Source of the DNA: Nautilus pompilius
Taxonomy: Eukaryota; Mollusca; Cephalopoda; Nautilida; Nautilidae
DNA length: 64,000 nt
NCBI GenBank assembly: GCA_018389105.1
Contig: JACATO010000092.1
Coordinates: 1,054,001-1,118,000 of the forward strand
Reading direction: 5' to 3'
The notes beneath the pieces were generated by a model. That model saw nothing but the letters and a program-made list of their open reading frames with translations. It did not search any database and was not told the DNA's origin. Position numbers and translations under genes: made by a program. Positions 28,241 to 63,074 of this stretch are shown one piece after another (position 1 is the first letter of the stretch; every line of letters begins with the position of its first letter).

Positions 28241-28850
28241 TGATTTTACACATGTGAATAGCAGTGGTTTGTCTCTAAGGAAACCAACAACAGTCCTCCA
28301 TCATGTTGGAGGTGAATCTTCCCGACAGCCCATCTCTGTTGCCCTTATGTGTTGGTGGAACCTCTCACTGTGCTCATCACTCACAGCACCAAGGTTGGCT
28401 GGGAAGAAATCCAAGTGAGGATGAAGAAATTACAACTTCAACAACATATGGAAACCCATTTCTTCAAAGGCTTTTATCATGTCTTGAACCAACTCAGCAT
28501 AGTTGTGTCTTTGTGGTTCCAAAGTAAATTGTAGACTACCAGTTTGAAAGTTTCTTATGTATCCAGCTCTAGTGGGTTAAGCCTGGACTGGAAGACTGGA
28601 TCAGAAAATAAATCACAAATTTGTGGTCCAATAAATATTCCGGCCTTCAACTTGGCATCATTTAAAATTGCTCCAAATTTTTCTTTCAGATAAAGAAATC
28701 TGGCACCTTCAACACGCATTGCATTTACAAATCTCTTCATTAGGCCCAGCTTTGCATGCAGTGGTGGAAGAAATATCCTTTGCAGATGTACTAGTGGCAT
28801 GTGTTGCAATTTCCTGGAGTATGGTCTGTTCTTGATGGCCATTCTTTGAT
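28240..28850 (-). pseudogene. Remnant of an unnamed conserved invertebrate protein family, probably transposon-derived
   Basis: The reverse strand reads LPPLHAKLGLMKRFVNAM, FLYLKEKF, DAKLKAGIFIGPQICDLF (28842-28555), then in shifted frames YAELVQDMIKAFEEMGFHM, FLHPHLDFFPANLGAVSDEHSERFHQ (about 28500-28310). From recall, intact proteins with the order PPLHIKLGLMK - KEGIFVGPQIR - GAVSDEHGERFHQDI occur in many copies in arthropod and cephalopod annotations and look like products of a mobile element. I cannot name the family. Stops and frameshifts show this copy is dead. Confidence 0.6.
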
Positions 28851-28859
28851 CTTATAGTG

Positions 28860-30505
28860 ATTTGTGTTGTCTTGGCTATTCTACGGGCACAAAAAGCACG
28901 TGTACATGTAAGCAGGCAACCACGTGGTTCTCCTGCATAGCCTGCTGTGTGTACACAGTACTAAAAAAATACTCAAAATATATAACATTAGATTTCCATT
29001 TATTTCTATAGCTAAAAATCCTTACATACTGGGTTAATTCTGATTACAGATTTGAAAACAGCTTGCTCAAATTAGTCTAAGACACATATTTTAACCTCAT
29101 TAGCAAATTGGTTGTTGTCTATGTTTTGGTGATCTTTCTACTGTTGTCAAATTTCTGCGTATTACTGATGATAGTGATGAGGGTGGTGGGAATCCTGAAA
29201 TGTAGATTTATTAGTTAGGCAATCTGATGAGCCTGGATCAAACAACATGTCGCCAAATATCTCTACACTTATTTTCTCTGATGACTCGTCTGCCTGCTGT
29301 AGGTGGTTACTATCTTAAAATGTACAGTTAGATCAGTGTTTTCTGCAGTGAAGCCAAATTACTCCATGGTAATGGATCCACCGATGAAATATCAATAGGT
29401 AACAGTTTGACCACTAGTCATTTTATCTTGCTGTATGTACTTGCCTGTGTACAAATGTGGAGTTTAAAACAAATAAAAGTTGAATGCAGATTACATTAAG
29501 TTATAATTTTTACTAATGAAAATTTATTCATTGGAAAATAATTATGTTGGAAACAAAAAAATAATTATAGATAATTATGATGCTATAAAAAAATATATTT
29601 ATAAAAAGTAGTCTGTAGTACCTTATTTCAGTGGAGGCTCATAAGTGATATTCATTTAATTTAACTAGATATTTTATTGATTTAATTGTATAAAAATATT
29701 CTTTAATTTTACATACAAGAGAAATGAGTAAAGTGGTTAATTGAAAGTAAAAGTGAAAAACAAATTCAGCTATTGATGCATAAAAATAACTTTGGTTTTC
29801 CACATCTTCTCTACCAACTACACCACCACTACTGCTATAAAAAGAGTTTTGGAAATTGTTACGTTGATGTGAAAAATGGATCTAAAACAATTGTATAATG
29901 ACACCATCCCCTGTTTCTGATTGGTCTGTTCCCGTGTTAACTGTAAATCTAATAGAAAACTCTGTGACTGTTAGTGATGAATTTTAAAAGTGCTGTTGAC
30001 AGATGGAAAGCAGAGAAGATAACATTCTTTATGTTGGGAATAAACTTGGTACACTAATTTTTTTTTTTTTTTAAGAAAAGCTGGTAAAAGTAATATTATT
30101 TGTAGGGAGATTGAGTAGGCATTATATATAGTGTATTGTTCTATGTATTGTCTTTCTCCAGCTTGAGATTAGAGTGTTATTGTGGTGGATGGATACTTGT
30201 CACAGACTTTGTGTTTCTACTGACTCTATGGAATAAAATGTAAACATAAACATAAATCAATAACAGAGAGAATCCAATCTGAGAGACAGTAATTACCATA
30301 ATGTACTAATGATCGTTATCGGCCAGAATTGTTATGTGTTAATCAGTCATGCACTGAGGTAAAATAATGGAAGCTTGTTCTGCCAGTTGCTAGGTGGCAT
30401 TGAGCTACGGCTAAAGATACGAACCTCCCTCCCACCCTAAAATACAAACATAAGTGGCATCAGGGATTCTTGTCTCAGCTAGTGATAGGTGCAAGTGTGA
30501 AAATT
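28860..30505. other. Gene-free AT-rich sequence
   Basis: No coding or repeat family recognised. A poly-T run lies at about 30059-30072. AATAAA-type signals occur near 29467 and 30231. Confidence 0.45.
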
Positions 30506-30509
30506 GGTG

Positions 30510-31827
30510 TACAAGGTGTAGTCAAAAAGTATCCGACCTGTGGCCAAAAAAAGTAATATTAAAAAACACACCATTTTGATTTAGTTTCCTTCAAAGTATT
30601 CGTCTTGGGAGTCTACACACTTCTGCCAGTGTTCTTGTCACTGCTGGAAACATTTCTGGAAATCACTTTTTGGGATCTGTAGAGCTGTGCTGTCGAATTT
30701 TGCTTAATGTCCTCTGTTGACTCAAATCTCCCTTTGGGTGTTTTTTTGAGCTTTGGGAATGGCCAGAAGTCACACGGAGCCAAGTCTGGGGAGTAGGAAG
30801 CCTGACGAACAAGTGGTGTGTTATGCTTGGCGAGGAATGCTTGGACAACGTGGGCGGAATGAGCAGGTGCGTTGTCATGGTGGAGTTGCCAGTTCTTTGC
30901 TGCCCACAGGTCGGGTTGTTTTCGCCGCACAGCTTCACGAAGGCGATGAAGAACCCCCAGGTAGTATTCTTTGTTAATTGTCTGACCTTGTGGTGCATAT
31001 TCATGGTGCACAATACCTCTGTAGTAAAAAAAAAAAAAAACAGGTCATCATCAGCTTAACATTGCTGCGCACCTGTCTTGTTTTCTTTGGTCTTGGTGAG
31101 GATGATTGCAATTTTGTTTCAGGGTCATAGCCATACACCCATGTCTCATCGCCAGTGATGATAGTGTTCATGAAGTTTTGATCTTGGCTAGCACAAACCA
31201 GCATGTCCTGGGAGATTTCTTTTCTGTTTTCTTTCTGCTGGTCAGACAGCAACTTTGGTACGAATTTGGCTGATACCCTCCTCATGCACAAATCTTCTGT
31301 TATAATTGACTGAACTAACCCATGGCTGATTCCAACTTCGGCAACAATCTCCTCAATAGTCACACGATGGTCTTTATAGACTATTCCTCGAACCTTTGCA
31401 ATCATTTCACCGTTTCTGCTAGTCGGTGGTCTGCCACAATGTGGCTCACTGTCCACTGAGGTGCAGCCATCTTTGAACCGGTTGTACTACTCCTTTATTT
31501 GTGTTTTTCCCCATAGCATCATCTCCAAAGGCATTCTGAATCTTCTCGATAGTCTGGGTTTGCGTATCACCAAGTTTTTGGCAGAATTTGATACAGTATC
31601 TTTGCTCAATGCGCTCGGTCATCTTGACTCAAAAAGAAAAAATCGCACAGCACACTTCACATCTGTACTTAACGTGTCACTGCAGGCGACTGGCACAACC
31701 TACAGACACGAAAATTTTTGCACATGCTCAGGAAGGATGCGGCCGCCTAATACCCATGTGGATTTTGCTCACACATTATTTTGTTCAAACAAATTCAAGG
31801 TCAGATACTTTTTGACTACACCTCGTA
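30510..31827 (-). mobile_element. Near-intact mariner element, 1,318 bp
   Basis: Inverted repeats: the left end begins TACAAGGTGTAGTCAAAAAG and the reverse complement of the right end begins TACGAGGTGTAGTCAAAAAG. The outer dinucleotides are TG (left, a decayed TA) and TA (right). The reverse-strand transposase is held in two overlapping frames, 31456-31001 and 31011-30613. All three catalytic aspartates of a DD34D enzyme remain: ITGDETW, LHHDNAPAH and SPDLAPCDFW. The frame breaks in a 15-base A run (31026-31040). A Trp-to-stop change breaks the N-terminal part near 31490. It is related to, but distinct from, the family of the copies at 19540 and 61912. Confidence 0.94.
30613..31456 (-). pseudogene. 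Mariner transposase gene with a homopolymer frameshift
   Basis: N-terminal part: VDSEPHCGRPPTSRNGEMIAKVRGIV, then helix-turn-helix VTIEEIVAEVGISHGLVQSII, MRRVSAKFVPKLLSDQQKENR, and the first Asp in TGDETWVYGYDPETK. After the poly-A slip the frame continues HHEYAPQGQTINKEYYLGVL, WQLHHDNAPAHSAHVVQAFL, YSPDLAPCDFWPFPKLKK. Apart from the slip this segment is well preserved, which suggests a fairly young insertion. Confidence 0.88.
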
Positions 31828-31829
31828 TA

Positions 31830-33290
31830 TGCATGATGGAAATCTCTAAAGCACTCCAACAACAGTCTATTTTAGAAAGGTCATTCATCACATTCTTCAA
31901 TAATTGCCTTACTAAATTAATTGGACAATTATGGGGAAAGACACTTTAATAAAGCAACTATGTGTCTGTCAATATCTAATATCAGTTGTCCCAGCATTGT
32001 GATAAGCTTGTTTCCATGATATTGCAGAGCAAACAACCAAAAAAAACTTTGTTTGGTATCTGCTTCGTAGCTTTGGCTCTCTAGATTTGATGATATGTTT
32101 TGGAGAAGAAGGCACAATAAATACAACTGCATGCACATGCTTTAATGTTTGGTTAAAAGAAAAACTTTTTAATATAAACAAAAATTAACTGCATAACTGT
32201 TTTTAAATTTAAGGATATTTTTAAAGGTTTAATTTGTCAAAAATGTTGTTTGCTTTTGTTTTATTGCCAACATACACCAGGGTTAACTTAGAGCTCCAGT
32301 GGGTGGCTTAAGAGCATGAGAGACCATTAAAAAGGGCCAGTACAAGCATATTCTGAGGCCATAGTTAAGAATGACTTATTTGAAAATGTTCAGTACAGAT
32401 TCTCTAGAACATTTCCAGGTGTGAAATAGACTTTAAATATTGGATGGGAGAAAAACCTACCTAGCCCAAATAGTATTTGATGGGAGGCCAGGTCTATCCA
32501 AGACTAAATTATTTAAGTGTAGCCAGAGCCTATCAAAAGTCCCTACCAGAATTCTTCATTTTTAGATGAGAGAAACCATGTTAGGGAAGTATAAATCTTG
32601 ACAGAGAATTTATCACCAATTTTTGAAAAGGTATTTAAAATTTCAAGCTACTATTATGCTTTTTACCTTATTTGTAGATTGACTAAGCATTGATCAGAGC
32701 ATTTATGGAACTATTGTAACACCAGTACTGTCATCGGTACTGGTCAGGAAGAGAGAGAAAAGGAATTTGGAGGATGTGAATTTATTTAAGATAATGTAGA
32801 TAAAGTTCTATTAAACAAATTTTTAACTCCTTTCTAAAAGTGGATTGAGTGATTTACTGTAAGTGCAGCCATGGTTTTCATGCTTTATTACTTATTTTAT
32901 ATTTCTTGGTCCCTATGAAAAGGCAGATGGGACCCAAATAAGGTCAAAATTAGCAACCATGCTGTACTAACTGACTAGTGAGATATGTCTAAGTGCACCT
33001 GATTTGTTAACAGGAGTGGGTAATTATTTTTACCTATTAGAGAAATCAGGGTTAATAGTGGTCAGAAGTTCCATGGAATTTTTGACAAAGCTATGATGAT
33101 GTCTGAAAAACTATGCTGCTTTCATCACTTGAAACAAAATTTTTCATGTAAATATATTTTATGAAGTTTCCATCAAATACTTTGAATATTTATTCGATGA
33201 CCTATCACAAAAGTACAGGACCAGTTCTTTTATGAGCAAACTATAGTTTTCAGTATAATGTCTTTTGGTACACTTTTTTCATTGTTTATA
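31830..33290. other. Gene-free AT-rich sequence
   Basis: No coding signature or known repeat was recognised. CpG remains scarce. Confidence 0.45.
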
Positions 33291-33299
33291 AGGAGCTTG

Positions 33300-33800
33300 G
33301 AACATTGGCTATAAGCCATTTTTGGCAACACCCTTCAGCATGTTGGTTGTAGCTGACTAGAGAGCATCTGAGTTTGAGATGGTGGGGTTTCAGAAGAACT
33401 GGAAAATAACACAAAGTCTAAAGGTACAAGATTTGGTGAGTATGGAGAATGTGGGAGTAATGTACCTACGATTAGTTAGAAATTCATGAATAATAAGCAG
33501 TATGTGGCATGGTGCATTGTGTTGAAGGTTCCACAGGATTTTCTTGTAAAAGAGAGCATTAACTATTTGATCTTTGGGAACAAATTCCTGGTGAACAATG
33601 TCCTTGGCACCAAAAAATACAATGAGCATCAGCTTTTCTGTATGTGTCAAGTCATCATCGCCTCTGTTCATCTGACTGTTTTGAAAGTAAAATGTGCAGC
33701 CACTTGACACATTTTCAAATCATCTATAAGCAATGGGTGACTGGAACCATATGAGACATCCAACATCTCAGTTATGGTCAGGGTAGGTCATTCCTATATA
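33300..33800 (-). pseudogene. Mariner-family transposase fragment
   Basis: The reverse strand reads KLMLIVFFGAKDIVHQEFVP, KDQIVNALFYKKILW, LQHNAPCHILLIIHEFL and ITPTFSILTKSCTF (33710-33390). These match the middle and C-terminal part of mariner transposases (FFD..G.VH.EFVP...TVN..FY..VL; LQHDNAPAH; LPHPPYSPDLAP). The second catalytic Asp (HDNAPAH) is lost. The 33335-33495 part is homologous to 36790-36970. Confidence 0.75.
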
Positions 33801-36785
33801 GTATCATGATATGTCATTGTCATTTGAGGGTCCCAAAGGTAATTACTTATTACTCTGCCCCCCCCCCCCACCCCTGGTGGTCCCAGCTATGGTACTGAAT
33901 GGTATTGATTGTGTAGGGGCCAGTTTATTGTCATCCACTACATTCATCATCATCATCAATGGATTCATGGCACTTATACACAAAACCTGGAGCATCTGGT
34001 TCTGAATCATTTTGATAGGTCCTCATATGTATGTATGTATTTATAGGGTTGCATCACCAAAATTAAATATTTTTTGAAGGTATAAACATAATTTGTTTTA
34101 TTTTACCATTGTATTAATACTTTATGATAGAGCATTAATTAGGAAAGATTGTTTATTCCACACAAAAGCAATACCATTGGCATACATAAGTGAAAATGTT
34201 TTTAAAAAAAGGAAAAAAAATCTACATTCAAATTTATTATTTTTTTGCAGTTGAGATTAAAGCAACAAGTTTAACTAGTAGTGGTAACTTCATATCAAGA
34301 TGTGCTGAGCTGTAACTTGCCAAGAATCCAAAATTGAAGAAAAAAAAAATATTTTAATGTAATTCATCAATTTAAAATCATTTTCCTGTTATGAATATTG
34401 GGGTATAATTAACCTAACAGCTCTTGTTATATAGGCATCATATTTTAGATCTTTTATTACACTTTCACTACAAGAATTGTTGCATGGGAATTTATAATTT
34501 AGGATATTTTGTTGGGAATAATATTAAAGAATGCTGCTTAACTAAGCTTGTTCACTGTGAGGAAAGAGTTGACAATCAAAGGGGCAGGATAATTCAGACA
34601 AACTGGCCATTGAAGCTGATTCTTTGAAGTCTTTTTCTTTAGTGTAATAAACCATTGAGAACCTAAAAGGTTATCACTTGTATCTAAGCTTTTAGGTTTT
34701 TCTCATGAAACCATATCAAAAGCTGTATGCAAAGATACCATTTTATTTTATCATCACACTACTAGCATTATCAGGAAACTTCAATTAACTTGGACAAATT
34801 TGTCACAGCTGAAGACTACATTAGCTATTTTCAATCAATTTGCTGTTATCTAAATGAAACACAAAGCATTCTTCAATGTTTTCCAGGAATAATAATTTCA
34901 AATAATTGGGCTTTCTTCTGTATTCTAAAATACTCTTTTTAACTAACTAATTTTAAGAGTCTTTAAATATTTGAATACCAACTTGCTTATTTCTAAAAAA
35001 ATAGAGTTTAAAGGCCCAATGTCTTTGATCAGATGTTGAGTTTAATAATTTTATCATACCTGATTTAAGATGAATAATATATCTCTCTTGTTTTATATTT
35101 TCAATATTATTTATAAAAATATTTGGATTTAGGCTTATAACTTTGGAGATTAGTCCATATCTCAAGTAAACATCCATCAAACAAGCAAGAATTACAGATG
35201 ATTGCTATAGAAAGCAGAGCTGCCACACATTTTACTTTTATGGAAAAATCTACCTCTTAGAGGAGTAGCCATGACAAATTCAAATTTCTAAAATGTATTT
35301 TGTGATCATATTCTTAGTTGATGTTCAAACAATCCATCAAATATAACCACACAATTTTTTTTTAAAATTGTAATAATAAATTTTACAATTTTTAAAAAAA
35401 TATATTTAAAACAGTAACATAACATTCTGAAAATGTTGGAAATGGGTGTTTGGTTGGCAGGAGATTTTACTTGTCAGTTGTTAGATCAAGCATATTTGCC
35501 AAAATAAGTGCAAAAGTGGGAGTTATGGCATCTGAGAATGTGTATGTGAAGTTTGAAAAAACTTCAGTCAATAATTAAGAAAATATTTTTACTGTATCCA
35601 ATTATCTTCTGGTAATTTTTTTTTTTTTTTGGCAGCAGGAGTTATCTCCTTTTATTTTAAAGTGGTTAACCATGTGAGTTCAGTGTTGTGCCAGGTCACC
35701 AGTCACTTGAAGAAACCTTAGAATAATATAAATAATATCTGTCTGTGTGTGATAGCTTAGAAAATCACCAGTAAATGTATTTATGGATTTGGAGCAATTT
35801 ATATATTATATTAATATTACATCTTACAGCCAGGGACTTCTACAGTAGATGAACATCTGTTGCCAACTAAAAGGAATAGACAGTTAAAATATTACTACAC
35901 CATAGCACTTTGAATAAGGATAACCTTTTTTCTTTTTTGATAAATTGTTGCCTGATTTTCTTGAGAGAGCTGCTCTTGAGTGTTTCATTAATTTTCTTTG
36001 TACAATTTTCTCATTTTTGTATTTTTTAAAAAAAAGTTATCTGAAGCATTTATTAATATTGCAAATGCAATTTGAATTTAAAGGAACAATTATTACATTT
36101 CATAAATTTTGTTAGGAAAATGTTAATTGATTTACTCTGCAAACATTCATTTTACTCGGACCAATTTATTCCTGCCTATCAGAAAGCTGTTGGGAGGAGA
36201 GGCAGAGACCAACATAAGGAACTGAACAACCATCTTTATGAGTAATTTAAATATGAAAGAAAATAAATGTCATCTAATGATGCTTTTTCAATTTTTGTAT
36301 TTTGTTTATTATACATTTTTTACAAAAATATTGTGAAGTATTTGACTGGGTTTGTGTGTGTGTGTAGTGAGGAAAAAAACATAAATTAAAGATAAATGCA
36401 ACTTTTACTCTCAATAAATAAAGAAATTATAAACAAGGAGTAACAAACAAATATGCCCTCAGAATTTGTAACTTAATTTTTATCCTTCAATTTTAATACT
36501 CAAAATGTGTTTATACAATTCAATTTGAAATGTTCAGGGGGTCATCTCTCAGTAAACATTTTTAATAATACACAGAAAGGGGTTTCATTTATCTGTCTCC
36601 AATGATGCTACATTATAAAAATGCTGTTCTTTTTTTTTCTTTAGAAGTAAATATCCACAAGGAAAAGCCAATATTAGCCTCTAGTATGCAAACTCCCCAT
36701 CTAGCACCTTTACAATCCTTATTGCATTGGAAAGATCATACACTGAAATATAATCGGTTCAAAATTTCATTCTGGTAATCAGAGG
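33801..36785. other. Gene-free AT-rich sequence
   Basis: It contains a poly-C run (33858-33869), a short (GT)n near 36353-36366 and many A/T runs. I see no gene or assignable repeat. Confidence 0.45.
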
Positions 36786-36789
36786 ATCA

Positions 36790-36970
36790 ATGGTAACCCT
36801 TTCAACACATTGGCTGCAGCTGATTGGAGAGCATATGAGTCCGTAAAACTGGCCTTTCAGAAGGCACTTCATACTGGGAGACAACACAAAGTCAAAAGGT
36901 ATAAGATCTGGTGAGTGTGGAGAATGTGGGAGTAATGTACCTATGATTGGTTAGAAAATCATGAAGAAGT
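36790..36970 (-). repeat. Second fragment of the mariner family seen at 33300-33800
   Basis: The stretch shares long identical words with 33335-33495, for example GGAGAATGTGGGAGTAATGT. On the reverse strand it reads FLTNHRYITPTFSTLTRSYTF, then text resembling PSMKCLLKGQFYG, the C-terminal end of the transposase. Only this end is left. Confidence 0.7.
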
Positions 36971-36974
36971 GATA

Positions 36975-39175
36975 ACATGAATCAAATTAAAAACCACAAT
37001 TAATGGACTGCAGAATGGTCAGTTGTGTAGCATGCTTTATTAATGTGTGGGCGGCTTGATAATAAAATGATTTTATATTCCCTTTATGCATTCATCTGTC
37101 CAAAAGCAACTTGAGAAGAAGGGAAAAAAATCAAGTTGAGTTCTAATGAAATGTTTGTTATTCCATAAAAACTTAATCATGTTGATGAAAGTTTTGGAAA
37201 AATTAATAGTGTATAATTAAGTTGTGTTTATCATTATAATTTATTTATTATAAACTTTCACTGAGGAGTTTGGATTAATATTTAATGTGAATGTATTAAT
37301 TTTATAACATTTAACTTAGTATTTTACTTTTTTTGATATATTGACCATCTAGATTATATTTATTAGTAATAAATGGCTGCTGTAGTCACACACTCATCTC
37401 TTGATTGCAGATTATTGAGTTCCCTTATGTGAAATTGACACTTTTATAAAGAATTCTACAAGCTTTACTTTTCACAATTCCACAAACTTGCTACAGAAAA
37501 GATTGATAACCTTGATGATGATTAAACTGTTTCATCAATCATTTTTAACATGAGTGTCATTTAATCTCTGTATGTATGAGTTAATGTTGGTCATGAAGAA
37601 GATTTCTATATAATCTTTATCAAATGTTTCTGAATAATTGTAGTTATTTATGACCAATCGATATCTATAAATGGTGCATCAATGATGTAGCTTGTTTTTG
37701 AATTTGCATACTGTGGTACACAAAAATTAAGTACAATTTAATATTCTTTAAATGTCCAACAACAATCCTTGACTCCATTTATGATCTAATTATAAATATT
37801 CATGAGAATTACATGACTGTTAGGATAAAATTCACAAATGCTGCTATTTAATCATTAAAAAAGAAAACTTTTTTATAGTTGAAATGATGATCATGAATAT
37901 TTTCATATTCAAAATACACTTATAAAACTAAGACTGCCAGTATACAGGCATAATGAGCCACAAGTGATCAGTAGGAAATGAATTAAGCTATAAAATTAAC
38001 GTTCAATTTTAATTTAGCTGTTACAGGTAGGCAGGAACCTAAAGGACTTGTACACATTCCTGCCGTAAAATTTTAACACCCACTAAAAGTCTGTTCGCCC
38101 ATTACATGTCCAACCATTGTCACAATTTTGAAAAATGTGCCAAGGTAAGCAGATTCATGAAAACATGATAGCTAAGATATTTCCCATTTCTTTGGCTCAT
38201 CATCAGAAGCCTCAATGGCCTTCATACACCATATTGCTAATGATCTAAATATTATATATTGGATAGTGTCTGTTTAGGGAGAAGAGGATAACAATTGCAT
38301 ATCAACAACCTCAGCTTCTACCAATATCAGTGTATTTATGGAACAAGATACTACCTGCCAAATATTCAGCAACCAATTACCAACAATACAGTTGTTATAC
38401 AGCAACATCATAGCTGTTGTATTATGCATTTGCTCTTGTATAAACATGAGTATATTAGACAAATTGCTCCATGGAAGTCATTAGTTACAGATCTTTTTTC
38501 ACATACATCAGTGTCTACAACGGTAAACACAGAGTTTATGTAGCGCCATGTTTACTGCTAACAAGCAATGCCAATCCTGCACTCTGTGGAACTTGGCACT
38601 GCCATTCTTCAGCAGGTATGACAGATGTGACAAAAGGCCATCAAAAATGACTTGTTAACAGTTACTCCTCACCAACTAAGAATAAATGTACATGCACAAA
38701 ATCTATAGTATTCAGGGTACTTTGGCAGAGATCTGTCCAAAGCCCACCCAAGTTAAAATAAAATTAGCAATGATTATTGACTATTGCAGCTAAAAAGTGG
38801 TTAAGAATTCCTTCAGTTATTGTGTTTGTGCCATGTTTTCTATCTAAAATCCAAACTGATTAACTTTAAATAGTCTGAAAACTATACATTCATAATTCCT
38901 GAACACTGGATAAAACCTTTCTAATAATCCAGTATATTTTCTTAAATGTGGGGCTCTATGTCTGCACATACATTTACCAGCTGGCTAGCAATATACACTG
39001 CTGGTTAAACCATCTTAAATTTGTCTCTGTATGAACATGTGTTTTGTGCAAATGCCTCAGAGGACTTTAAGTGCAAACTTTTTTTTAGTGTACCAAGCTG
39101 AAAATCTGTGCACTAAAATCAAAAAAATGTGTTTGCTGGTAGTGGGGCACTCCTAAAAAGAAAGCTTAGGTCACA
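36975..39175. other. Gene-free AT-rich sequence
   Basis: No coding signature. CpG count is about four in 38001-39000. The short open frame at 38295-38543 has no recognisable motif. Confidence 0.45.
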
Positions 39176-39179
39176 TGTA

Positions 39180-40040
39180 TTGTTTTGAGGACTAGCTGCA
39201 AAATTCATTTTTACCAGAAGTGAAAGAATTCCTTACGAGAAAGAATCGTGTTGGACAGTGTGACAGGTCACATGTCAGAGTCATTGTTCTTTGTTGATTC
39301 CAACATTTCTATTATGTTCTGCCAACACAGCCTCAATTTTACAGGCTACTGACCAGGGAATTATTAAGACTTTCAAATCTTAATACATCAGAAGGCTCTA
39401 CAGACAGGCACTGGACACAATCAATGTAGTGATGGTGGAGAATCTGATGCAGTTTTGGAAGGAATGCAAAATTTTGGTCTGCATCAGCATAATCCAGGCA
39501 TCTATGGAGATGGTCAAATCTTCATCTTTGAATGCCTGTTGGTACAGATTTTGGCCTGAGATCGTCAATGAGTGCAGAGGCTTCCCTACTATTGACAATG
39601 AAGTCATTGAAATTGTGAGGCTGGCCAAACAGCTGGTGGGGAGGATTTGAAGACATCGAGGATGTGGGGGTGATCAAGCTTATTTCTCACCTTTCCAACA
39701 ACAAAAGAACTTGAGCAACTTGCTGCATCCAGCAGCAACAGTAAGAAAGAGGAAGAAACAGAATGTGCTAAGTCAGCCATCACTGCTAAAACCATTTGAG
39801 ATTTCCTGTGTAAGGCTCAAAACTTGAGTAAAGAGATCATTGATCTTGATTCCATCATAGAAAAAAGTCTCAACTTTAAGCAGGTGTTAGGATCAGCTTT
39901 CATGTTACAAGAAGCTCCAAAAGGAATGCAAAACAGCAGAGGATCACCTCCATGCTTCAGCCTGCCTCTTTGGTCTGCCAGCATATCTTGGAAGGAGCCA
40001 GATGATCTTCCATCAGATGAATATTTTGTTCTGTAATTTG
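39180..40040 (+). pseudogene. Tigger/pogo-like (CENP-B/Jerky DDE) transposase remnant
   Basis: The + strand carries the C-terminal half of a Tigger-type transposase. Parts seen are FLPEVKEFL-type text (about 39205), ANTASILQATDQGIIKTFKS (39328-39389, family form PNTTSLLQPMDQGVI), YIRRLYRQALDTI, LMQFWKECKILVCISIIQAS (39447-39506), LNACWYRFWPEIVNECRGF, VIEIVRLAKQLVG, then after a frameshift GFEDIEDVGVIKLISHLSNN, and finally MSKEIIDLDSIIEKSLNF (39824-39877). Stop codons and at least one shift break it. No inverted repeats were found. Confidence 0.78.
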
Positions 40041-41482
40041 ATTTATTCAATTGTAATTTGTGAGTAAAAATTTTAATAAGACTATTAATTCCATTGTCTT
40101 GTGTTTAAATATCCTTTCATTGAAATAAGGTTATCAAATCTTGGTTCAAGGTCCCTATCCCCCCCCTTTTCCAGAGACTTAATGTCTCAAGTTATACAGT
40201 TTCAACTTACACGGTGTTTATCAGGAGAGTGCATATCCCCTGCATAACTTGTGGTTCAACTGTTATCAAACTTTGATAATTTATTTAGTGGTAATAAATG
40301 GGGAAAATTTGTATTTAGATACTGAAATAAAAGAATTAAATATATCCACTCTTTCTTGCTTTTGCTAACCTTCATCCATATTTCATATGGACAAACCTTA
40401 TTTATTAGGTAATTTTTGTTTGTTTTTTTATCATTCTATTTGCATCCAAAAATGTATTTTCCTTTATATTTAAGGTTTTTAATAATAATAACCCCTAAAT
40501 TACTTTCTGAAACTACATTTTCCAAATTAGGTCTATTCCCATAAAATAATGTCCTTATTCAAATAAAAAATAGGAAAGAAAAGATAAAACCATCCTCAAT
40601 TTTTTAATACTATCAAACTCCGTTTTACATTTAACTGACCAGTAGAGTGGTGATTTTAAATCTCTCATTTGAACGCTAACTATGTATTTAAATATTAGAC
40701 CCCAGTGAAATTTTGTAGTATATAAAATATCGTTATTTTCGAACCGCTGGGCCACGAGTATAAATACTGTTTATATAAATCAAAGGCAAGAGAGGAGGAG
40801 CCCAAACAGACCCCCGCAGCACACCATTGGAGACATGGAGAGCGGTCCTGTCACACAAATTGTGTCCCTTCGTCTGAAACCAATTTTTCTTAATTATTTT
40901 TTAATCGGTAAATGAGAATTATCGAAAAAATCACTATAAATTAAATTTTGTTTTCTTAATTCCAATGGAGGTTGATTTCTTTCTCTTTCTCGAGTGGCTT
41001 TTCCCCCACATCTAAGGTTGTTGGAGAGTGCTAGTAGTAGGGGCTTGTTTTCAGGTAGGTGTTCTGGAATTTTTATATAGGTAGCTCCTGACTGCCGCCC
41101 CCGCACCTGGGTGACCTCCCTGATCACCCTGGCTGATGGACCAGCTCCTCCCTGCTACTGTGAGATTTCCTTATATTTCGAAGTCGAGACTAGGGATCCG
41201 CCAAGATGGTTAATTGCTGCTCACCCCCCAAAACGAATATATTCCCCACGTTATGTGTTTACCGTCGGGTCGGGGGTCTGCACGAAGGTTATGACTTCAT
41301 GACACCTCATGAAGAATTTCCCATTTTATCTGATATTGCTTGAAGCCACCCCCAGATAAAGGATATCTGATATCCAGCAGTCGATTCTGGGGAATACTTT
41401 AGGGGACCAAGTCATTTCAAACTTCGATTAGGAAGAGAGGCCATCTATTTCTTTGATGCGATTTTTTAATAAGATTTAATAA

Positions 41483-41517
<35 letters not shown>

Positions 41518-42931
41518 CTACGGGCCAGAAGGCGTCAGTGGACCCGCAGGACGTGTGGCAGCAGACTTTTGGTCATTCTTGGTAACTGTTGACTGGGCCC
41601 TTGTTGACATCCGTTCCCTCCATGGCCGCACAAAACCTTGCAGATTTACATACACTGTATATTTATACTGTAAACCAAAGAAGATATAAAATACTTCGAA
41701 AAATTCATTTTTATGTTAAAAAAAACAACAAAACAAATCGAAGAAAATAAGTTAATGGTTCGAGACAAAGGTATTATTAGTCATTTCAGGTGTTATCTTT
41801 TAATGTGCCTTTGCTGCTGATAGAACCGAAAACCGTTTATCTTTTTTTTCAAGAGGTTTAAGATTTCTAAGATAATTTTTTTAGGCTCGGAATTAAATGC
41901 ATTTGGACCCCTTAACCAGTATGTTAGTTACACTTGGCTCGCCGAATTTTTGTATCTTCTGCATATCATTATAATTTAAAAAAAAAACAACAACCAAACA
42001 AGTAAATAAATAATACAATATACTTGGCAATATTATGAGCAGTAACCTCACCAGCTAAAATCTTTTTTATTTTATAACGGTTCTGCTTTTTATTATAAAC
42101 GTTTATTGGATTAGACTTCTTTCTTTTCTATGAATTGTTAATTTAAAAAAAAAACAAAACAATTTTTGAAAAATGTAATATTTACGATGTTTCTGCACAA
42201 ACGTGGGAAAATAAGAAACAAACTTGGAGATTAGTTATTTCAGTGCAGACCACACAAAGTCTTGTTTTGGTCATTATTTTTTCCATATTGCGTAATAAAT
42301 TCATCGTGGTCATCATCACATGTTACCTAAATCAAAATATTAACAATGGTCGGTGGAGGAAATTTCACCATCTAAATATTGTTCACATTTTGAGTTATCT
42401 TTGCTAGACTCTGAAGTTATAGTCTAGTGTCGATGTGAAAAGTATCTTTCACTAGGTGGAAGATCAGGGGAAGAAGAGTAAAGGTGATGGTTTGATCAGA
42501 TTTTAGGATATTTATTTAATTTATATATGCTATTGATTGACTGGTTTGACATTCCATAGAACATCGTAAATATAGAAGTGAATTCAAACTGCTCAGAAAT
42601 TCCAAATTTATTCTCGAAGCACCTGTTAAAATATTTTTGAGCGTTCTGAAAAAGTCACTGGTCTCACTTATAATTATACACTTAATAAAATATATATTTC
42701 CTTTGGCTAGAAATTTAAGCATAACTTTTCTGTGGTATAATACAATAGGGAACCTCTTCATGCTGCTGCGCATCTATTAACGGAAGGGATACAATTCTTT
42801 ACAATATAATGCAACGAAACAATTTATGCGCACAAAAGCTACTGAACTATTCTTCACTGGAAAAATTATTTATTAATTTTATTTTAACCTGAGAGAGAGA
42901 TGATGATGAGATGATAGTGGTTATTATTATA

Positions 42932-42984
<53 letters not shown>

Positions 42985-43760
42985 TATTATTATTATTAAA
43001 CTGAAATAAATTTTTATTCTGTAATATTTTTTTGAAATCACAAGGTTGTCTTCCTTGTATGTAGATTTTAATCTGAGTGCAAGTTCTGTTAATAGATAAT
43101 CAGCCATTGAATAATTTAAGGAATAATTTTATTTAATAAAGCTAATTTAATTTTAAGAAGAAAATCGAAATTTTAAACCTTTTAATTAAAAATTTTCGCT
43201 CCATTTTAAGCAACAAGAATCCGTCAGTTTAGTAACAAATTTGTTGCAAGAGAAAATTTATTTCCCTTAACTAATTTTGTTCACAAATTTAATTATCTCC
43301 CTTGGATTTTATTTACAACTGAAAGGTCTAAACAAGGAACTTGTTTGTTTGATTTGTGGTATCAGTTCAGTTGATTTGTTCTCAAGACTCATTATCAGTC
43401 GGCCCATCAGATCAAATTACAAAATATTTCCGCAAAAATATTCTCTTATGTGATGTATTTCTGACACAGAAGTCTACACTTGTACTCCCAAACTACATAA
43501 TGCATGTCAACTATCTTTGTATTCACGACAGAATGTCAAACTATGTTCATTTACCCGATAGTTAGTTATTTATTGACAAACAGGCATCTATCTACAAATT
43601 AGAAATATCTTTAAGAGAATAGATACTAATTTTAGTTCAATTATATGTAGAAACTTTAATATAAATTGCTAATGGCCATTCCAGTCATATAAACTCATGA
43701 TCACAAGCTATCTATAAGAACAGGTACAAGCCAGGAAAAGCCTCAGTCTGTGGACAGCCT
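40041..43760. other. Gene-free stretch containing the CpG-density step
   Basis: No gene recognised. Up to about 40.6 kb CpG is rare. From about 40.67 kb it becomes frequent and stays so to the window end. Microsatellites: (AAT)n 41484-41514 and (ATT)n 42921-42998. The short frame at 41111-41302 has no family signature. Confidence 0.5.
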
Positions 43761-43764
43761 CGCC

Positions 43765-44480
43765 ACGATCAGGAAATTCACAGAAACTGATGGACTTTGA
43801 ATGGCAACGCATAATTTGGAAATAGAAAGTTTGTAGAAGCCAGTGGAAAATCAATGTACTCGATATTTAGCTGTTGATTGTTAACAGAGTGATTATCAAA
43901 TAAAGAGTACATAGTTCCTTGGTTGTCCAAAGCCACAAGAATGAAAACTCCCTACTGTGAAGAGGGATGTTGGAAATGAACCTCTACAATTGGCTGCAAA
44001 TGTGTCAGATTGTGTACAGGTGTATACGAGACCATCATCAGTCATTATTTCGGCCTACACAATGTCAGTCAATCACCACAATGATATAGCATATGCTATC
44101 TTGCTCGTTTTCCTTTTGGAACACACTTTTCCCAACGAGTCAAGGTTTTCCATTTCTCAGGTCTTGCAGGAGGGTGGCACCATTCGGCACAGAAATTTCC
44201 ATTAAACCACCTGCAAGCCACGACTAAATATAACGGTTCTGTCTATCATATTGTGGGATACGATTTTGGCCACTTGATGTTTATGGCTGAAATGGTCACC
44301 GAAAGAACTGCAACTGCTACTCCATCAACATTCTATCGAAGGAACCTCTGTCCAAAGGAGGCACCATTTTTATAGAAGATGGTACCCAAAAAATCAAATC
44401 AGCATAAATCTGCTATCATTTGCCAAATTGTGGAACAAGAGCCCCCATTGAGCAAAGGTAGGCTATTCATGACCTATCTC
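43765..44480 (+). pseudogene. Probable Tc1-like transposase remnant
   Basis: Scattered pieces in changing frames look like a Tc1-family protein: LMDFEWQRII (about 43786, family LTDFERGRII), a central NESRFSISQ (about 44138-44164, family TDESRFSLS) and VGYDFGHLMFMAEMV-type text near 44255-44300 (family VMVWGAI.FG). No block is long and none is decisive alone. Their order is right for Tc1. Confidence 0.42.
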
Positions 44481-45274
44481 TGTAGAAGTGTTTCCTAAAT
44501 CAACTTCCACTATGTAGCAGACCAAGACTGCTCGTCCAAACATTATAGGTATATAGATACTTTGTATGAGGCAAAGTATCGGTATTTCTCATATCTCTAT
44601 TTTCTAATACTAGAAAGAAATTTAGAATTAACAGTATTAAATATACTAAATGTGCAAATTAATATACTACCCTCCTGGGGGAGGGTACTACAACAACACT
44701 GCTAATATTTAAGCTTACAATCAAGAATTAAATATCATAGTTCTTCTCTACACTATGTACTGCACCATCTTCTTACCATCCTCTGGACTTAATTGGGGAA
44801 TGCTTCATCAGAGTGTTGCGTGGGTGTATTTACGTATCTTTACCTGCTTCGACCCATTGGTGGGACTAATGCGACACTCACCGGTCTACTAAATCAGATG
44901 CCATAGTTGGTTACCAGCAAATAACGCAGACTCTTGTTGGAGAACTGTGTCAAGATTGCCTCACAAAAATGGGCAGCCCGGTCAGACGCCGCAATTTAAG
45001 GAAAAACAGATAAGAAACTTTGGAATGCATCATTAGGAAAAACTGATGGCTCAATTCTCAGTCATTTAGATGCAACAAACGAGTCTTCAGAATCCAGCTG
45101 ACTATTTTGAATTTTATTGACAGATTTGTATGAAGGTCTTGTAGAATAAATTAAATATATACGAAATAAATATGACGATTTCGAAAAGAATAATTTCAAA
45201 TTGGAGAAATGCATTCATATTAAGATGAAGAAAAAAAGCAGAATCATGAGAATAAAAATGTTTTTGATGAAAGT
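44481..45274. other. Gene-free sequence
   Basis: AT-rich with a slightly GC-richer part (44780-45000). No gene or repeat family assigned. Confidence 0.4.
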
Positions 45275-45377
45275 GAATATTTAAATAGTAATTTAAAAGT
45301 GAAATAGAACTATATACTGGAAAACCAACTGCAACTTAAGATTATTGTATTTCAAAGCATTTTCATCTCTTCAAAGC
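45275..45377 (+). repeat. Direct repeat copy 1 (103 bp)
   Basis: This segment, starting GAATATTTAAATAGTAATTT and ending CTCTTCAAAGC, is identical to 47050-47153 except for one inserted A in the second copy. The flanks on both sides are unrelated. It encodes nothing visible. Confidence 0.9.
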
Positions 45378-47049
45378 TTCTTTACCAAGTAAATTATATA
45401 TATATATACGGTTGATGAGTTAAAACGTTTTCGTTATATATAATTTCTCAGGAATACTTTCTACTCAATTTGCGACAGATTAATATTAGAATTATCAAAA
45501 GTTTAATCGATACACCAATATCGGCCAGTGCATTAATCTGTGATGTTAATTTGTTTCTATTTTGAAATATTATAATCATACCGATCATGGATTTTGTGAT
45601 CAGATTATATTTATTTATATCGTCATTAATCTTTTTTTTGTATTATTCTTTTGATCATATGACATGTGCATTCTATTCTGTTCTACAAATGTTTGTTTAT
45701 TTTATGAAATAGAAAGTTAATTACACGTATTTCTTTATTAAATTTCATTTATATGATTTTTGTTTTTCAAACAAGAGATCTTACAGACTACATACCTAAT
45801 AAAGTCGTGTGAGGGTGGGAGCCCTAAAGTTTGTTTTCCTGGGGCTTCAGAAGTTCTCAACACGGCGCAGGTTGTAGATGTTAGTGAGGGTGGCTACAAA
45901 AGGTCAGATGGGGAATCTGAATTTACCCGGATGTTAGATGTTTTTCGTATATATTTTTGATTTATCTAACCACGTCGGGTTTTGAGGAATGATGCTGATA
46001 CGTGATACACTGGCTTTTAGTGATGATGGATAGCTAATGGCTCTAGGTGTTGAGTGTGTGGTCACTTCAGTAAATAGCTTTACACAGATAAACAAGCGTA
46101 ATGAAGCTCTATTAAAAAAGAAAAAAAGATATTAATTAGGAAGAAAGTAAGCAGCAAATGCAGTTAGCATGGCTGGGTACCAGGTTTGGGCTGATCTGAG
46201 TTATCACCAAGCGGTTCAGCAGTGGGATGACTGTATCTGTTACCTTTGTAACCACCAGGAAGTCAGCTTTAGTTTTTTTCAGGTAATTGTCTTTTTCTCT
46301 CTGAACCAGTAAGACTCAGGGATGATCAATGTTACCTGAAGGTGAGATGGCGGAATTGTTAGTTTAACGGCGTGGGGTGTTGGCTCTGAGGGTGGATTCC
46401 TAGAACTCGAACTCCTCAGTAAAATTTATCGTGGCAAGATTTTTTTAAAAATAAAAGTATGAAGGTTCTACCTCTTGGAACCGACTGCCGGAAGCCACTT
46501 TTTTTTTCTAGTCGCGCGAAAATCATGCGATATCGTGGACCAAGTTGGAAAAAGCCGAGTGGCGCCGACTATAAACAGGTTGAAAACCGTCGTCAAGCTC
46601 AACGGGGGAAGAATCTTCTAGAGTGACCGGAAAAGCAGAGGTGGAAATGGATGTTAGAGACGAGTGACAGAAATAAGAGGTAAACGCCTAACATAATTGC
46701 AATCACGACGAACGAGCACGCTACGCTTAACCTGTATCGCGTGTTTTATTATTAATTTCTGAAAATTATATATTAAAAGAAGCTGTTTGCAAGACACACC
46801 AATCCGGTTATTCGCGTAGTTTTTTTAAAAAATAACTTAAGGTTTTTGCCTGGAAATCACATTTAACTGATAGAATGAAGCACTAAGTATACGCCATTTT
46901 TAATAATGGGCCTTAACTTCGAGTCTAAGGAGGATGGTTGATCGAATGTTGGTAACCGACTGGTTCGCTGCTGCTGTCACGATCTTTAATTGAAGCATTG
47001 GGCTAGTGTTGGCAAAAATTAGTAGAAAATTTTACAGCTCAAAACAATT
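45378..47049. other. Sequence between the two direct repeats
   Basis: About 1.67 kb with no open frame of interest. It contains a (TA)n near 45393-45409 and a tRNA-like head at 46345-46450. CpG-rich stretches at 46490-46700 have no assignment. If the two repeats were element termini, this would be the element body, but it shows no reverse transcriptase text. Confidence 0.4.
46345..46450 (+). repeat. tRNA-like SINE head
   Basis: An A-box-like TTAGTTTAACGGC (about 46360) and a B-box-like GAACTCGAACTCC (46403-46415) are spaced as in Pol III promoters. A coherent tRNA cloverleaf is not apparent, so a SINE scrap is likelier than a tRNA gene. Confidence 0.4.
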
Positions 47050-47153
47050 GAATATTTAAATAGTAATTTAAAAGTGAAATAGAACTATATACTGGAAAAC
47101 CAACTGCAAACTTAAGATTATTGTATTTCAAAGCATTTTCATCTCTTCAAAGC
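47050..47153 (+). repeat. Direct repeat copy 2 (104 bp)
   Basis: Near-identical partner of 45275-45377, 1.77 kb downstream in the same orientation. Directly after it come CTGATGA (47160-47166) and GAAAC (47188-47192), spaced like the core of a hammerhead ribozyme. No matching stem I is evident. Confidence 0.9.
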
Positions 47154-47199
47154 CATATCCTGATGATACCGAGAAAAAAATATAGTCGAAACGTAAGTT

Positions 47200-48410
47200 C
47201 ATTAGTTAGCTCCAGTCCGAACTAATTCTTTATATTCCGGAATATTTACTTGTGATAAAATCTGCTTTCACGCGTTTACAAACTATACTAATTAGTAATT
47301 TAAAATATTCCTAAAAATCCAAATTTACAAGCCCTTTTTGCCATGTAGTCTTTAATATTAACTATTTAACATTAGGATAAATTTCGGAAAATTTTAAAAA
47401 AAAAAAACGAAAACGTTCCCATATTCCGAAGGGTTTGTTTCATGTATTTGTTTATGCTTATTTATAAAGATTATTTTAATTTTGGAGATCTGTGCGGTCA
47501 TATTCTCGACTCCATTTGGTTCGCTCAATTATGCATTGAACCGTCTGACTAATGATGAGTTTTCTTATTTTACATCTTTGTTCACATACGGAGTTTAATG
47601 CGTCAAAATACGATGCCTTGGTGAGTTTGTGCTTACAGACATCTTAAGTAGAATATGTCCGCTGCCGACAGTCGTGTTTATAATGGATGAGGGTACGTCA
47701 GTGAGAACTATCTAGCGTCAAAATATGGACCAGTGCAGACGGAAGACGCGTTTACTGTAGCCAAAGAAAATCTGAAGTTCCTATTTCCAGATTAAAGACC
47801 ACGCCATCACAGATGCACATGCAGAGCTGGATACGTTGTTATATTTTATATTTACGTAGTATTTATTTTTGTAGTTGTAAATAACATCGTCTGTAATAAA
47901 ACAATGCATAACAAATTGGTGATCGTGGGTGGAAAGCTTTACCAAAGCAGAAAGTAGAAACGGGGATTTAAAAAAAATTGAATCTGTGCAGTGCATACAC
48001 AACTAACAGGAAAAAACAACCGATTACTGCTACATCCTATCACAGCAGATAGGTATAATCAGCAGAAATCCACTTTTCACCACTCTAACTAAATAAAATT
48101 TAGAAGGATATTTTGATTATTACCATATTAACACTGGAACTTTATTACATTTACATTAGTAAAAGAAACGAAAGAAGGCAGTAATTCTCTTAAGTTTTAT
48201 AATTATTTCCTCATAAATGGCCAATAGTATATAATTACAATGCTTTAAAACCGATCTTATCTGTTAATCTGCAGTAGTATAAATTTTAAAATATTTTTGT
48301 AAAGTAAGCCATCAGTTATGTTTATGGCAAACACAAATGAAGGCGTTTTGAATGTTTCAAATGAAGCCAGGGGATTTGAACGGTTTGACAGTATTTGGGA
48401 AATTCACTCT
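47200..48410. other. Gene-free AT-rich sequence
   Basis: No gene or repeat assigned. The reverse-strand frame at 47781-48002 has no family motif. Confidence 0.4.
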
Positions 48411-48413
48411 ATA

Positions 48414-48867
48414 TAGGTGGGCCAAAAAATGCATCTGATTTCAATGTCAAATAGAAATTTGATGGATGTTGATATCAGTGTTACACAAAACCGAATAAAA
48501 GGAGAAAATCAAAAGTTTATTGGCATCAATACAAATTTTAAAAATGTTTTTCCGCCATTCTGAGCACAGGACGGTTCAGATCGCCAACTGTTCTTAGTTT
48601 CTCTTCATAGACATTTTTCTTTAAGGTACCCTCATAGTTAAAGATCTAAGAGGGATAAATCTGGTGATTTTGGAGACCATGGAAACGGAGACCTGTGGGA
48701 AATTATGTGTTCTGAAAAAAAGTTTAAGTATTGCATTGTCAGTTTGAAAGTATGCGCACATTTTGAGTTCCTTCTATTATTTAGTTTTGGTCTTACACTA
48801 ATATCACAATCCGTTAATTCTTTATTTGCCTTTGAAATCGGGTGCATTTTTTTGGGGGGGCACCCTG
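48414..48867 (-). mobile_element. Short TIR element of the IS630-Tc1-mariner superfamily, internally deleted
   Basis: The ends form inverted repeats of about 40 bases: TAGGTGGGCCAAAAAATGCA at left and, reversed, CAGGGTGCCCCCCAAAAAAA at right, both continuing into GATTTCAAxGxCAAAT. TA flanks each side (48412-48413 and 48868-48869). The reverse strand still reads RSPFPWSPKSPDLSLLDL (about 48700-48640), the C-terminal SPDL..LD motif of a DDE transposase. Most of the coding region is gone (about 454 bp left). Confidence 0.75.
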
Positions 48868-49019
48868 TATTTGTCTGGCCTATCCTGTGAAAGTACTTCA
48901 CTGTTAAGCTATATTATGACAGTTAATCCAATCCAGTAAAGAATACGTGATCTTCAGTGTCTGGGCTCTTATTCTTTGAGTGGGGGATCGGAAAATAAGA
49001 AAGAATTTTGGAGAAACAA

Positions 49020-49440
49020 ACATAATCAAACATGTCGTAGTACTGTAGAAGGTTTCTAATTTTACTTCTCTTTGAATGGTTGTAATTTTCTCTCAGCAAG
49101 AGCCCTGCTGACCTGCTTTCGAACAGATTCATAATAATCGTTTTTCCATCTTTCCGAGTCGGTCCACATTTATTCTGACGTGTGGTTTACCTTCCGCCGG
49201 GGTCCTGTAGTTTGGAAAGGGATGAAGCTTTATGTCACCATCGTCCAGTCTTTCGGGATACCTAGTGTCCACATTGCCAAAGCCCCCAGAAACAGCTTTC
49301 GTTGTGATCTTGCGATTGTCATTTCTTAATTCTATACGGGCCAGCAACGAAACCGACCCCCCCAGGCTTTCTTCTTCAAATGGGTCTCGCGCTGAGTGTC
49401 CTACCACCCAAAGGGAGGTGACGAGCAGACGACACATTAG
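49020..49440 (-). other. Unassigned open frames with a coding look, CpG-rich
   Basis: On the reverse strand a 102-codon frame (49437-49129) reads LLARIELRNDNRKITTKAV...VDTRYPERLDDGDIKLHPFP. In another frame, 49160-49050 reads WTDSERWKNDYYESVRKQ followed by VSRALAERKLQPFKEK. The composition is unlike the AT-rich surroundings and looks protein-like, but I recognise no family. It could be an exon of a reverse-strand gene or a retroelement piece. A GGAAG|gtaaac donor-like site sits between the two frames (49196-49180). Confidence 0.3.
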
Positions 49441-49449
49441 GCGGGAACG

Positions 49450-49904
49450 CCCAGTGTCGGCTGCTGTGAGTAACTAGATCGTTTCGTTGGAAATATACTT
49501 TACGTATTGCATCAGCTTGCGCGAAGCAAGTCATCGAATCCCACACCGTGGTTACAGACATGGTTCCTGGGAATAAACTCACGTGACAGCCCGACATTTT
49601 ACCACTGCCATCTATATAAAGGACCCGTAATAAATTTCGAACACATCCTGCTTGTCATTTGATGACATCAGTAACTTACTCTACATTAATACAGATTATC
49701 TCTTAGAATAAGACTGACGCTATTTATGCGATTATTTATTTTTTAAAAAAAGTTACTCGTTTTAAGTAACTCAAATATATTTAATGTAAAATTTATTGAG
49801 AATTTATTTTTACGAAATACAAAGATAAAGACTTCAAAAGTCTAGCTGTTGTTTGTTTTTTATAAAAAAATTGTATTTGTTTATCGAGTACCAAGAACTA
49901 TTGC

Positions 49905-49949
<45 letters not shown>

Positions 49950-50925
49950 CTCATGACTTCGGTATTTAGCGAGTATTCTTTTAATATATGGTGGCATTCG
50001 TTACACAAAATTAAAAAGGTTGATTTTTATAAGTTGAACGATGATGGCGCCATTGGAATTAGTTTCCTTTCTGTCTGAATAAAAATCTCAGAAAAAACTA
50101 TTAAATGATGTGGATTTTCTTTACACACCAATCAATATAAATTTTCGGAATTAACAATCTTTTACTATATGCCCATTTTATTTTGTATACGTATTGAATA
50201 TTTGACAAAAAAAAATCCTTGGAGCATTTCCTCCTCCTTTCTTGCCGCGGTATGACCACCGACGCCACCTGTACAGGTAAAGGAAGGATGCCAGGATAAC
50301 GCTGTTGAAATCCAATCATTAAGAAAGCAATATTCTGTCACGCTAACGGCGACCAGAAGAATATAGAGCTACTTTAATACAAATTTTAAATATCCGATTT
50401 TTATTTTGAACGTTTTTTTAAGTCAACATGAGCTTAACATTTTTTTTTAAAAAGGAAATTTAAAAAAAAAACAAAAAGTTGCTGATATTTTACTAAGTAA
50501 AAAAACAAATTTCTTTCAGATTTGGTTCTCGTACCGTTATCGTAGCATCGCGAGGCAGAGTGTTTACAGTTAGGCTTAATTCTTCATGTCTACTCTGCTG
50601 AAGGAAGTTACCCATAAATTTTCGCTTGCAAATTGTTTTCTTTTAAATTTTTGTTTTGTTTTTTTTTTGAATTTTAAGAAGTTCTGAGGGTTTTCTTCTC
50701 GACTTTTACCACGGGCTATAAATTATGGAGTGGCCAAAATAATATTCGATGCATTAGTTATGGGTAAAGTCCGTGTCGAGTTACTCAAAATAATTCTGAC
50801 TTCTTTTCTGAAAGTTTTGTTATAATCAAAATTTGCTTTGCTTTGTATTTCTAGTTTATGCATATTAATTGTTGTTGTTGTTTTTGTCGTTGCTAAAATG
50901 ATAGTCTGTAGACCAAAACTGCTGC
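49450..50925. other. Gene-free sequence
   Basis: A + strand TATA-box-like TATATAAAGGACC lies near 49613, with no gene visible behind it. (AAT)n spans 49908-49949. No gene or repeat family is assigned. Confidence 0.4.
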
Positions 50926-50929
50926 GAAT

Positions 50930-51275
50930 TTATCGAAGTGAACTATTGGCTCTGCGAACCCCGTTCTGACGTCTGACGGAAGTCAGCCAGATGCGGGGTT
51001 GTCTGCCTTGGTGGCCGATCACGTGACTTTTGAACGGCGAACAGGATACAGCCAGCCAAAAATTACCCGCGTAACCTCCTCCACAGGTACTTAGACCGTT
51101 CATTCTTCTGTGGAAGAAAGCCCACCCGGCCAGCTGATGAAAAAGGGCAAGAAGGAATCATGGCAGGAAGGTACCTCAAAGCAAGTCGTCCCAACCAGGA
51201 TTCGAACTAGGGTCTCCAATCTTAGCAGTATCCAACCTTTGCTACGAGAAACGACTAGACTACATTAAGACGGAT
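50930..51275 (-). repeat. tRNA-derived SINE, reverse orientation
   Basis: Reverse complement: a tRNA-like head with B box TAGTTCGAATCC (about 51199-51210) is followed by CCTTCCTGCCATGATTCCTT, which parallels CTCCCTGGCATGATT in the copy at 25700. Further on, GGCTGG...CGTTCAAAAGTC parallels GGCTGG...TGTTCAAGAGTC there. This supports one SINE family with a shared body. Confidence 0.65.
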
Positions 51276-51279
51276 ATAT

Positions 51280-52823: not shown

Positions 52824-52856
<33 letters not shown>

Positions 52857-54895: not shown

Positions 54896-54899
54896 AATG

Positions 54900-56067: not shown

Positions 56068-56116
<49 letters not shown>

Positions 56117-58730: not shown

Positions 58731-58734
58731 CGGT

Positions 58735-63072: not shown

Positions 63073-63074
63073 TA

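Follow-up and report, generated by a model that had tools for sequence, protein, structure and literature searches.

A sharp CpG step 15.6 kb downstream of a PAS-domain gene in Nautilus pompilius as the probable edge of a germline-methylated domain

Why should CpG-poor DNA continue for many kilobases beyond the stop codon of the only gene in its vicinity, and then end abruptly? In many invertebrates, transcribed gene bodies are germline-methylated and CpG-depleted, while intergenic DNA is not. We addressed the question in a window of 64,000 nucleotides from Nautilus pompilius (assembly GCA_018389105.1, contig JACATO010000092.1, positions 1,054,001 to 1,118,000; all coordinates below count from the first base of the window). 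The first-pass annotation of this window had reported an abrupt change in CpG density at 40.6-40.75 kb, about 15 kb beyond the stop of the only gene at 25007. It had offered four explanations: a very long 3' UTR, further unannotated exons, a downstream non-coding transcript, or a second transcript that enters the region from about 40 kb. The stop was found where it had been placed, and the CpG-poor domain extends beyond it by 15.6 kb (Table 1).

Recomputed CpG densities were 3 (7001-8000), 4 (38001-39000), 4 (39001-40000), 15 (42001-43000) and 22 (54001-55000) per kb, close to the earlier hand counts of about 4, 4, 4, 15 and 24. A Poisson change-point model, allowing for local C and G content on a 10-bp grid, located the best single change point at 40,610 (3-lnL limits 40,390-40,730; 2lnLR of 484 versus no change). 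The CpG observed/expected ratio (O/E) was 0.21 on the left of this point and 0.93 on its right; CpGs at 40,212 and 40,621 flank the step, with none in between. When 500-bp blocks were permuted, none of 5000 permutations reached the observed statistic of 481, and the largest permuted value was 96. A ramp test over 31.9-46.4 kb, in which rates were varied on a coarse grid, gave the best fit at zero width, with lnL losses of 1.0, 1.8 and 4.3 for ramps of 400 bp, 800 bp and 2 kb, respectively. The step is abrupt: a transition some hundreds of bases wide is compatible with the data, and a smooth gradient on the kilobase scale is rejected. The change claimed by the first-pass annotation was thus borne out both in its position and in its sharpness.

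Table 1. Features of the 64-kb window discussed in the text
Feature	Position	Strand	Basis or remark
CpG-poor domain, probably germline-methylated, still open at left end of window	1..40600	.	segment O/E 0.18, 0.19, 0.09
PAS-A exon, first part	704..837	+	edges by eye at AG/GT
PAS-A exon, second part	6189..6351	+	edges by eye
PAS-B exon, first part	13871..13977	+	edges by eye
PAS-B exon, second part	19174..19318	+	Pfam PAS_3 E=9.7e-9; edges by eye
Mariner copy A within CpG-poor domain, CpG O/E 0.52	19539..20830	-	
Last identified coding exon, stop 25,005-25,007	22961..25007	+	acceptor by eye
Domain part beyond last identified stop; transposon remnants	25008..40600	+ (presumed direction of transcription)	keto skew positive as in introns
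Second mariner (Mos1-like), inside CpG-poor domain	30400..31600	-	ends approximate
Decayed transposase-like remnant, 2 CpGs left	39368..40050	+	Pfam DDE_1 E=0.092 only; ends by eye
CpG step, edge of CpG-poor domain	40390..40730	.	change point, ramp test, block permutation
Transition shoulder, O/E 0.66	40601..46400	.	segmentation
CpG-normal DNA, probably unmethylated, O/E 1.01	46401..64000	.	no convincing Pfam exon in frames scanned
Mariner copy A in CpG-normal DNA, CpG O/E 0.72	61911..63074	-	88% identical over main block

The left domain is not uniform. Two stretches, 19.2-20.8 and 30.3-31.9 kb, reach an O/E of 0.53, and each carries a mariner insertion. Since these mariners still have a CpG O/E of 0.52 and 0.46, respectively, they are suggested to be younger than the rest of the domain. 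The part between 31.9 and 40.6 kb, with an O/E of 0.09, is as deeply depleted as the introns of the PAS gene (0.12-0.20) or deeper, and the deepest depletion is met at 33.75-36.75 kb, where a single CpG remains in 3 kb. The depletion is equally deep in both and hence no weaker far from the gene than within it; the introns and the DNA downstream of the gene are also as CpG-poor as the last exon. On the right side, segmentation distinguished two levels, the shoulder and the CpG-normal DNA listed in Table 1. Inside the shoulder the O/E falls again to 0.50 at 43001-45000, is 0.72 in 45.0-46.4 kb and is about 1 from 46.4 kb onwards; the dip looks as if this part had been partially methylated in the past.

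Methylated cytosine mutates to thymine, and loss of CpG accompanied by gain of TpG and CpA is the expected trace of this process. Such a trace accompanies the step. The CG observed/expected ratio rises from 0.13-0.19 on the left through 0.66 in the shoulder to 1.06 on the right, while CA/TG falls from 1.30-1.32 through 1.10 to 1.02. All other dinucleotides shift by no more than 0.2, and the ranges of G+C per kb overlap between the two sides. The step is therefore, very probably, the edge of a germline-methylated domain in a mosaic methylome of the invertebrate type. To the left of 40.6 kb, CpGs would have been methylated in the germline for a long time and lost by C-to-T mutation, and to the right they would have been kept. 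The suggestion of the first-pass annotation that germline methylation underlies the CpG loss has gained support from this reciprocal TpG/CpA excess and from the mariner pair described below. Another origin of the step, namely a misjoin in the assembly or the border of a large, recent insertion, is highly unlikely. It would account for a sharp edge that coincides with no recognised feature, and the far end of an insertion would fall outside the window. However, dinucleotides other than CG and CA/TG hardly change across the step (0.2 or less), and the right-side frames of at least 120 aa all lie in or over the mariner. Moreover, the same mariner family occurs on both sides, which makes a chimera of two species unlikely, although a join within one genome is compatible with this.

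The transposon pair that straddles the step is a useful internal control. The alignment of the two copies of mariner A comprises 1296 columns, 136 of them with a gap; it is a single pair, and its changes are unpolarised. Twenty CpG sites are common to both copies. Of the 47 CpGs of the outside copy (62 kb), 24 are represented by TpG or CpA in the inside copy (19.5 kb); conversely, 7 of the 30 CpGs of the inside copy correspond to TpG or CpA in the outside one. This asymmetry of 24 versus 7 is significant (binomial p=0.003), and it also differs from the other transitions, which by subtraction number 34:28 (Fisher p=0.04). In this mariner, CpG decay thus seems to be determined by the site of insertion. 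Among viral contigs we found no relatives of mariner A by which the changes could be polarised, and a search of phage records gave no relative of the second, Mos1-like mariner.

Methylation of the left side could in principle have been attracted by its transposons instead of by transcription. The region of 25-40.6 kb holds three mariner pieces and two less certain transposon pieces, the latter recognised by eye. Mariner fragments at 33.3-33.7 and 36.8-37.0 kb have an O/E down to 0.14. The remnant at 39368..40050 is presumably Tigger/pogo-like, judging by resemblance. A minus-strand open frame of 98 aa at 28558-28851, which had no Pfam match, resembles what we take to be an invertebrate transposon-encoded protein. 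Nevertheless, we consider this origin very improbable: the right-domain copy of the same mariner kept more CpG, and introns in 1-8 kb (O/E 0.12) are as depleted as the transposon pieces, so that decay follows place and not element.

Next to be considered is the gene from which the domain extends. The joined PAS-A pieces had NPAS3 as their best solved-structure match (E=6.7e-10) and the joined PAS-B pieces EPAS1/HIF (E=1.5e-20). Searched alone, the last identified coding exon had no match in Pfam up to E=0.1, nor any in PDB better than E=0.7. Because the best matches with named proteins were bHLH-PAS factors, we take the gene as a putative member of this class, HIF-like in PAS-B, whose bHLH part would lie to the left of the window. 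A HIF-alpha would presumably carry the oxygen-degradation motif LxxLAP. This motif was not found in the three plus-strand frames of the window, exons further left being outside the view, and the sole match to any of the oxygen-motif patterns tried was APYI at 61,811 on the plus strand, far outside the gene. The name HIF-alpha was therefore withheld despite the EPAS1-like PAS-B. Either a HIF-like factor that lacks oxygen control or a different bHLH-PAS gene is conceivable. Across 1-23.1 kb, 141 plus-strand frames of at least 38 aa yielded the PAS matches and a marginal match to GINT1_N (E=0.0089).

In 25-40.6 kb, both strands were scanned against Pfam, covering 99 of the 110 frames of at least 45 aa; the remaining 11 lie within a mariner, and one of them (31,004-31,486) was scanned separately. 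No convincing host exon was recognised among the 99 frames. They gave a match to Transposase_1 (E=1.1e-6) and a marginal one to G6PD_C (E=0.0048), the latter taken as chance among 99 scans. Likewise, no Pfam match appeared in 112 of the 123 minus-strand frames of 27-44 aa, the 11 frames between 30.3 and 31.9 kb being left out. These scans detect Pfam-recognisable coding exons only, and on the plus strand they covered frames of 45 aa upwards. On the right side (40.6-64 kb), 123 of the 144 frames of at least 52 aa were covered (the 21 starting at or beyond 61,790 were left out) and contained no convincing Pfam exon; three marginal matches, the best with E=0.0057, were taken as chance. Rfam at gathering scores and tRNA scans returned nothing. 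The best 45 segments of a codon-usage scan included the last exon but none of the PAS exons; as it misses the PAS exons, its silence elsewhere means little. Further unannotated exons were thus not encountered by Pfam among the frames tested in 25-40.6 kb, although all explanations that assume the direction of the gene, this one included, fit the strand skew reported next.

Keto skew (T+G minus A+C on the plus strand) was calculated with exons and transposon pieces masked, some of the latter by eye, and with bootstrap intervals. It amounted to 0.052 [0.035,0.068] in the gene introns, 0.037 [0.012,0.060] in 25-40.6 kb and 0.003 [-0.015,0.022] in 40.6-64 kb. The interval for 25-40.6 kb stayed above zero in all six settings of block size and homopolymer masking. 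With fewer masks, both T-A (p=0.017) and G-C (p=0.020) were positive there, in tests made per base with clustering ignored; for the G-C skew alone, the masked bootstrap interval includes zero. The part between 31.9 and 40.6 kb, taken alone, gave 0.026 [-0.002,0.051]; across settings the value ranged over 0.022-0.026 and its interval lay above zero in one of six. When the Tigger-like piece was left unmasked in this part, neither the T-A nor the G-C skew was significant. Such skews are usually read as transcription-linked strand bias. The skew, on a scale calibrated on one gene, is moderate evidence that plus-strand transcription reaches about 40.6 kb.

The main reading of the extension is that plus-strand transcription of the PAS gene, or a plus-strand transcript continuing from it, would run to about 40.6 kb in germ cells. 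Methylation would follow transcription. The gene could have a long or an alternative 3' end or non-coding exons further downstream, or transcription could continue beyond the poly(A) site (read-through); the last, absent from the explanations offered earlier, would likewise account for the extension. We infer methylation, transcription and its direction over 25-40.6 kb from the nucleotide sequence, and we regard the chances for and against transcription running on from the PAS gene as evenly balanced. Support comes from the step, its CpG/TpG character, the asymmetry of the mariner pair and the same-sign skew when 25-40.6 kb is taken in its entirety. The reading is weakened by several observations: i) no exon was found in 25-40.6 kb, ii) the skew is weak in 31.9-40.6 kb alone, iii) the CpGs lost inside the left mariner copy A became CpA 17 times and TpG 7 times on the plus strand, opposite to the intronic excess of TpG, and iv) AATAAA shows no clear avoidance on the plus strand of 25-40.6 kb.

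As for iv), AATAAA is present 0.4 kb past the stop. After correction for composition, its plus-strand occurrences versus those expected were 22/16.8 in 25-40.6 kb, 26/23.9 in the introns and 38/27.4 in 40.6-64 kb. In 1-22988 the motif occurs 60 times on the minus strand and 26 times on the plus strand (58 seen and 37.7 expected on minus, 26 seen and 23.9 expected on plus). The right side leans likewise, with 53 on minus versus 38 on plus, and therefore the intronic imbalance is not a clear case of sense-strand avoidance. Poly(A) signal counts thus did not discriminate between the readings.

The main rival assumes that two convergent genes share one methylated domain. According to it, a minus-strand gene would start from a promoter immediately to the right of 40.6 kb, extend leftwards and end tail to tail with the PAS gene, and the sharp step would be the 5' edge of this second gene. 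In sperm of Ciona intestinalis, a single methylated domain occasionally extends over convergent genes without any drop between them (PMC3827831), and in Nematostella methylation was regained faster at 5' ends (PMC13345969). In our window, the edge is sharp, the deepest depletion lies near it, and the CpA majority in mariner copy A indicates that the strand signals do not all point one way. On the other hand, a minus-strand gene should give a skew of about -0.05, as we deduce from the scale of this window, and the opposite sign so expected was not seen in 31.9-40.6 kb. The skew thus argues against a minus-strand gene that would occupy 32-40.6 kb. Neither the 112 short minus-strand frames nor the 99 longer frames gave any Pfam match beyond the transposase and the one marginal match mentioned above, and the minus strand of 25-40.6 kb shows no depletion of AATAAA (20 seen, 13.4 expected). 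Taken together, we hold the convergent arrangement to be possible but rather doubtful. Concerning the four explanations of the first-pass annotation, those that follow the direction of the gene are modestly favoured by the skew, and the second transcript from about 40 kb is less favoured.

A same-sign skew where coding exons were not detected might also come from a separate plus-strand non-coding transcript, or from an unrecognised gene, in 25-40.6 kb and independent of the PAS gene. Such a transcript would need a promoter of its own, normally an unmethylated, CpG-richer gap, but the sole CpG-richer segment in this region is the one with the mariner at 30.3-31.9 kb, and we judge the possibility improbable. 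Returning to run-on transcription, its most specific version can be put forward only tentatively: the primary transcript of the HIF-like PAS gene would be extended by about 15 kb on the plus strand in germ cells, with a fixed end near 40.6 kb that has stayed in place long enough for a mutational edge narrower than about 1 kb to form. If this were true, CpG edges combined with strand skew could map hidden germline transcript ends without any other data. A gene model that ends at the stop codon may miss 15 kb of transcribed DNA, and a single unannotated sequence can show where germline methylation has probably long ended.

Sharp-edged mosaic methylation is already well known, and the present case is one more such edge. 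In C. intestinalis sperm, methylated domains border sharply on unmethylated ones, 83% of the methylated DNA coincides with annotated genes, and domain edges are unrelated to the first methionine or the stop codon (PMC3827831). The Nautilus domain resembles these in its sharp edge and in possibly being a single domain over two convergent genes. Unlike in Ciona, where methylation was measured, here there is only its mutational trace, together with a 15.6-kb extension in which no second gene was found. In a segmentation of deuterostome genomes by CpG score, CpG frequency predicts methylated and unmethylated regions with relatively sharp boundaries (PMC2957685). That is a genome-wide statistic, whereas our test concerned one boundary and used strand skew together with a transposon pair. 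Insects methylate a subset of their transcribed genes and leave intergenic DNA largely unmethylated; in the majority of the arthropod species examined exons are more methylated than introns, while two crustaceans show little difference (PMC7343188). With introns and downstream DNA as CpG-poor as the last exon, our window is closer to those two crustaceans.

Two further repeats were noted in the right half of the window. An inverted repeat at 48424-48514 and 48761-48852, with arms of about 92 bp that match at 77% of positions and a span of about 430 bp, is reminiscent of a foldback or miniature transposon. A direct repeat of 108 bp, 98% identical between 45271-45377 and 47046-47153 and 1.8 kb apart, is a putative recent duplication or short interspersed element.
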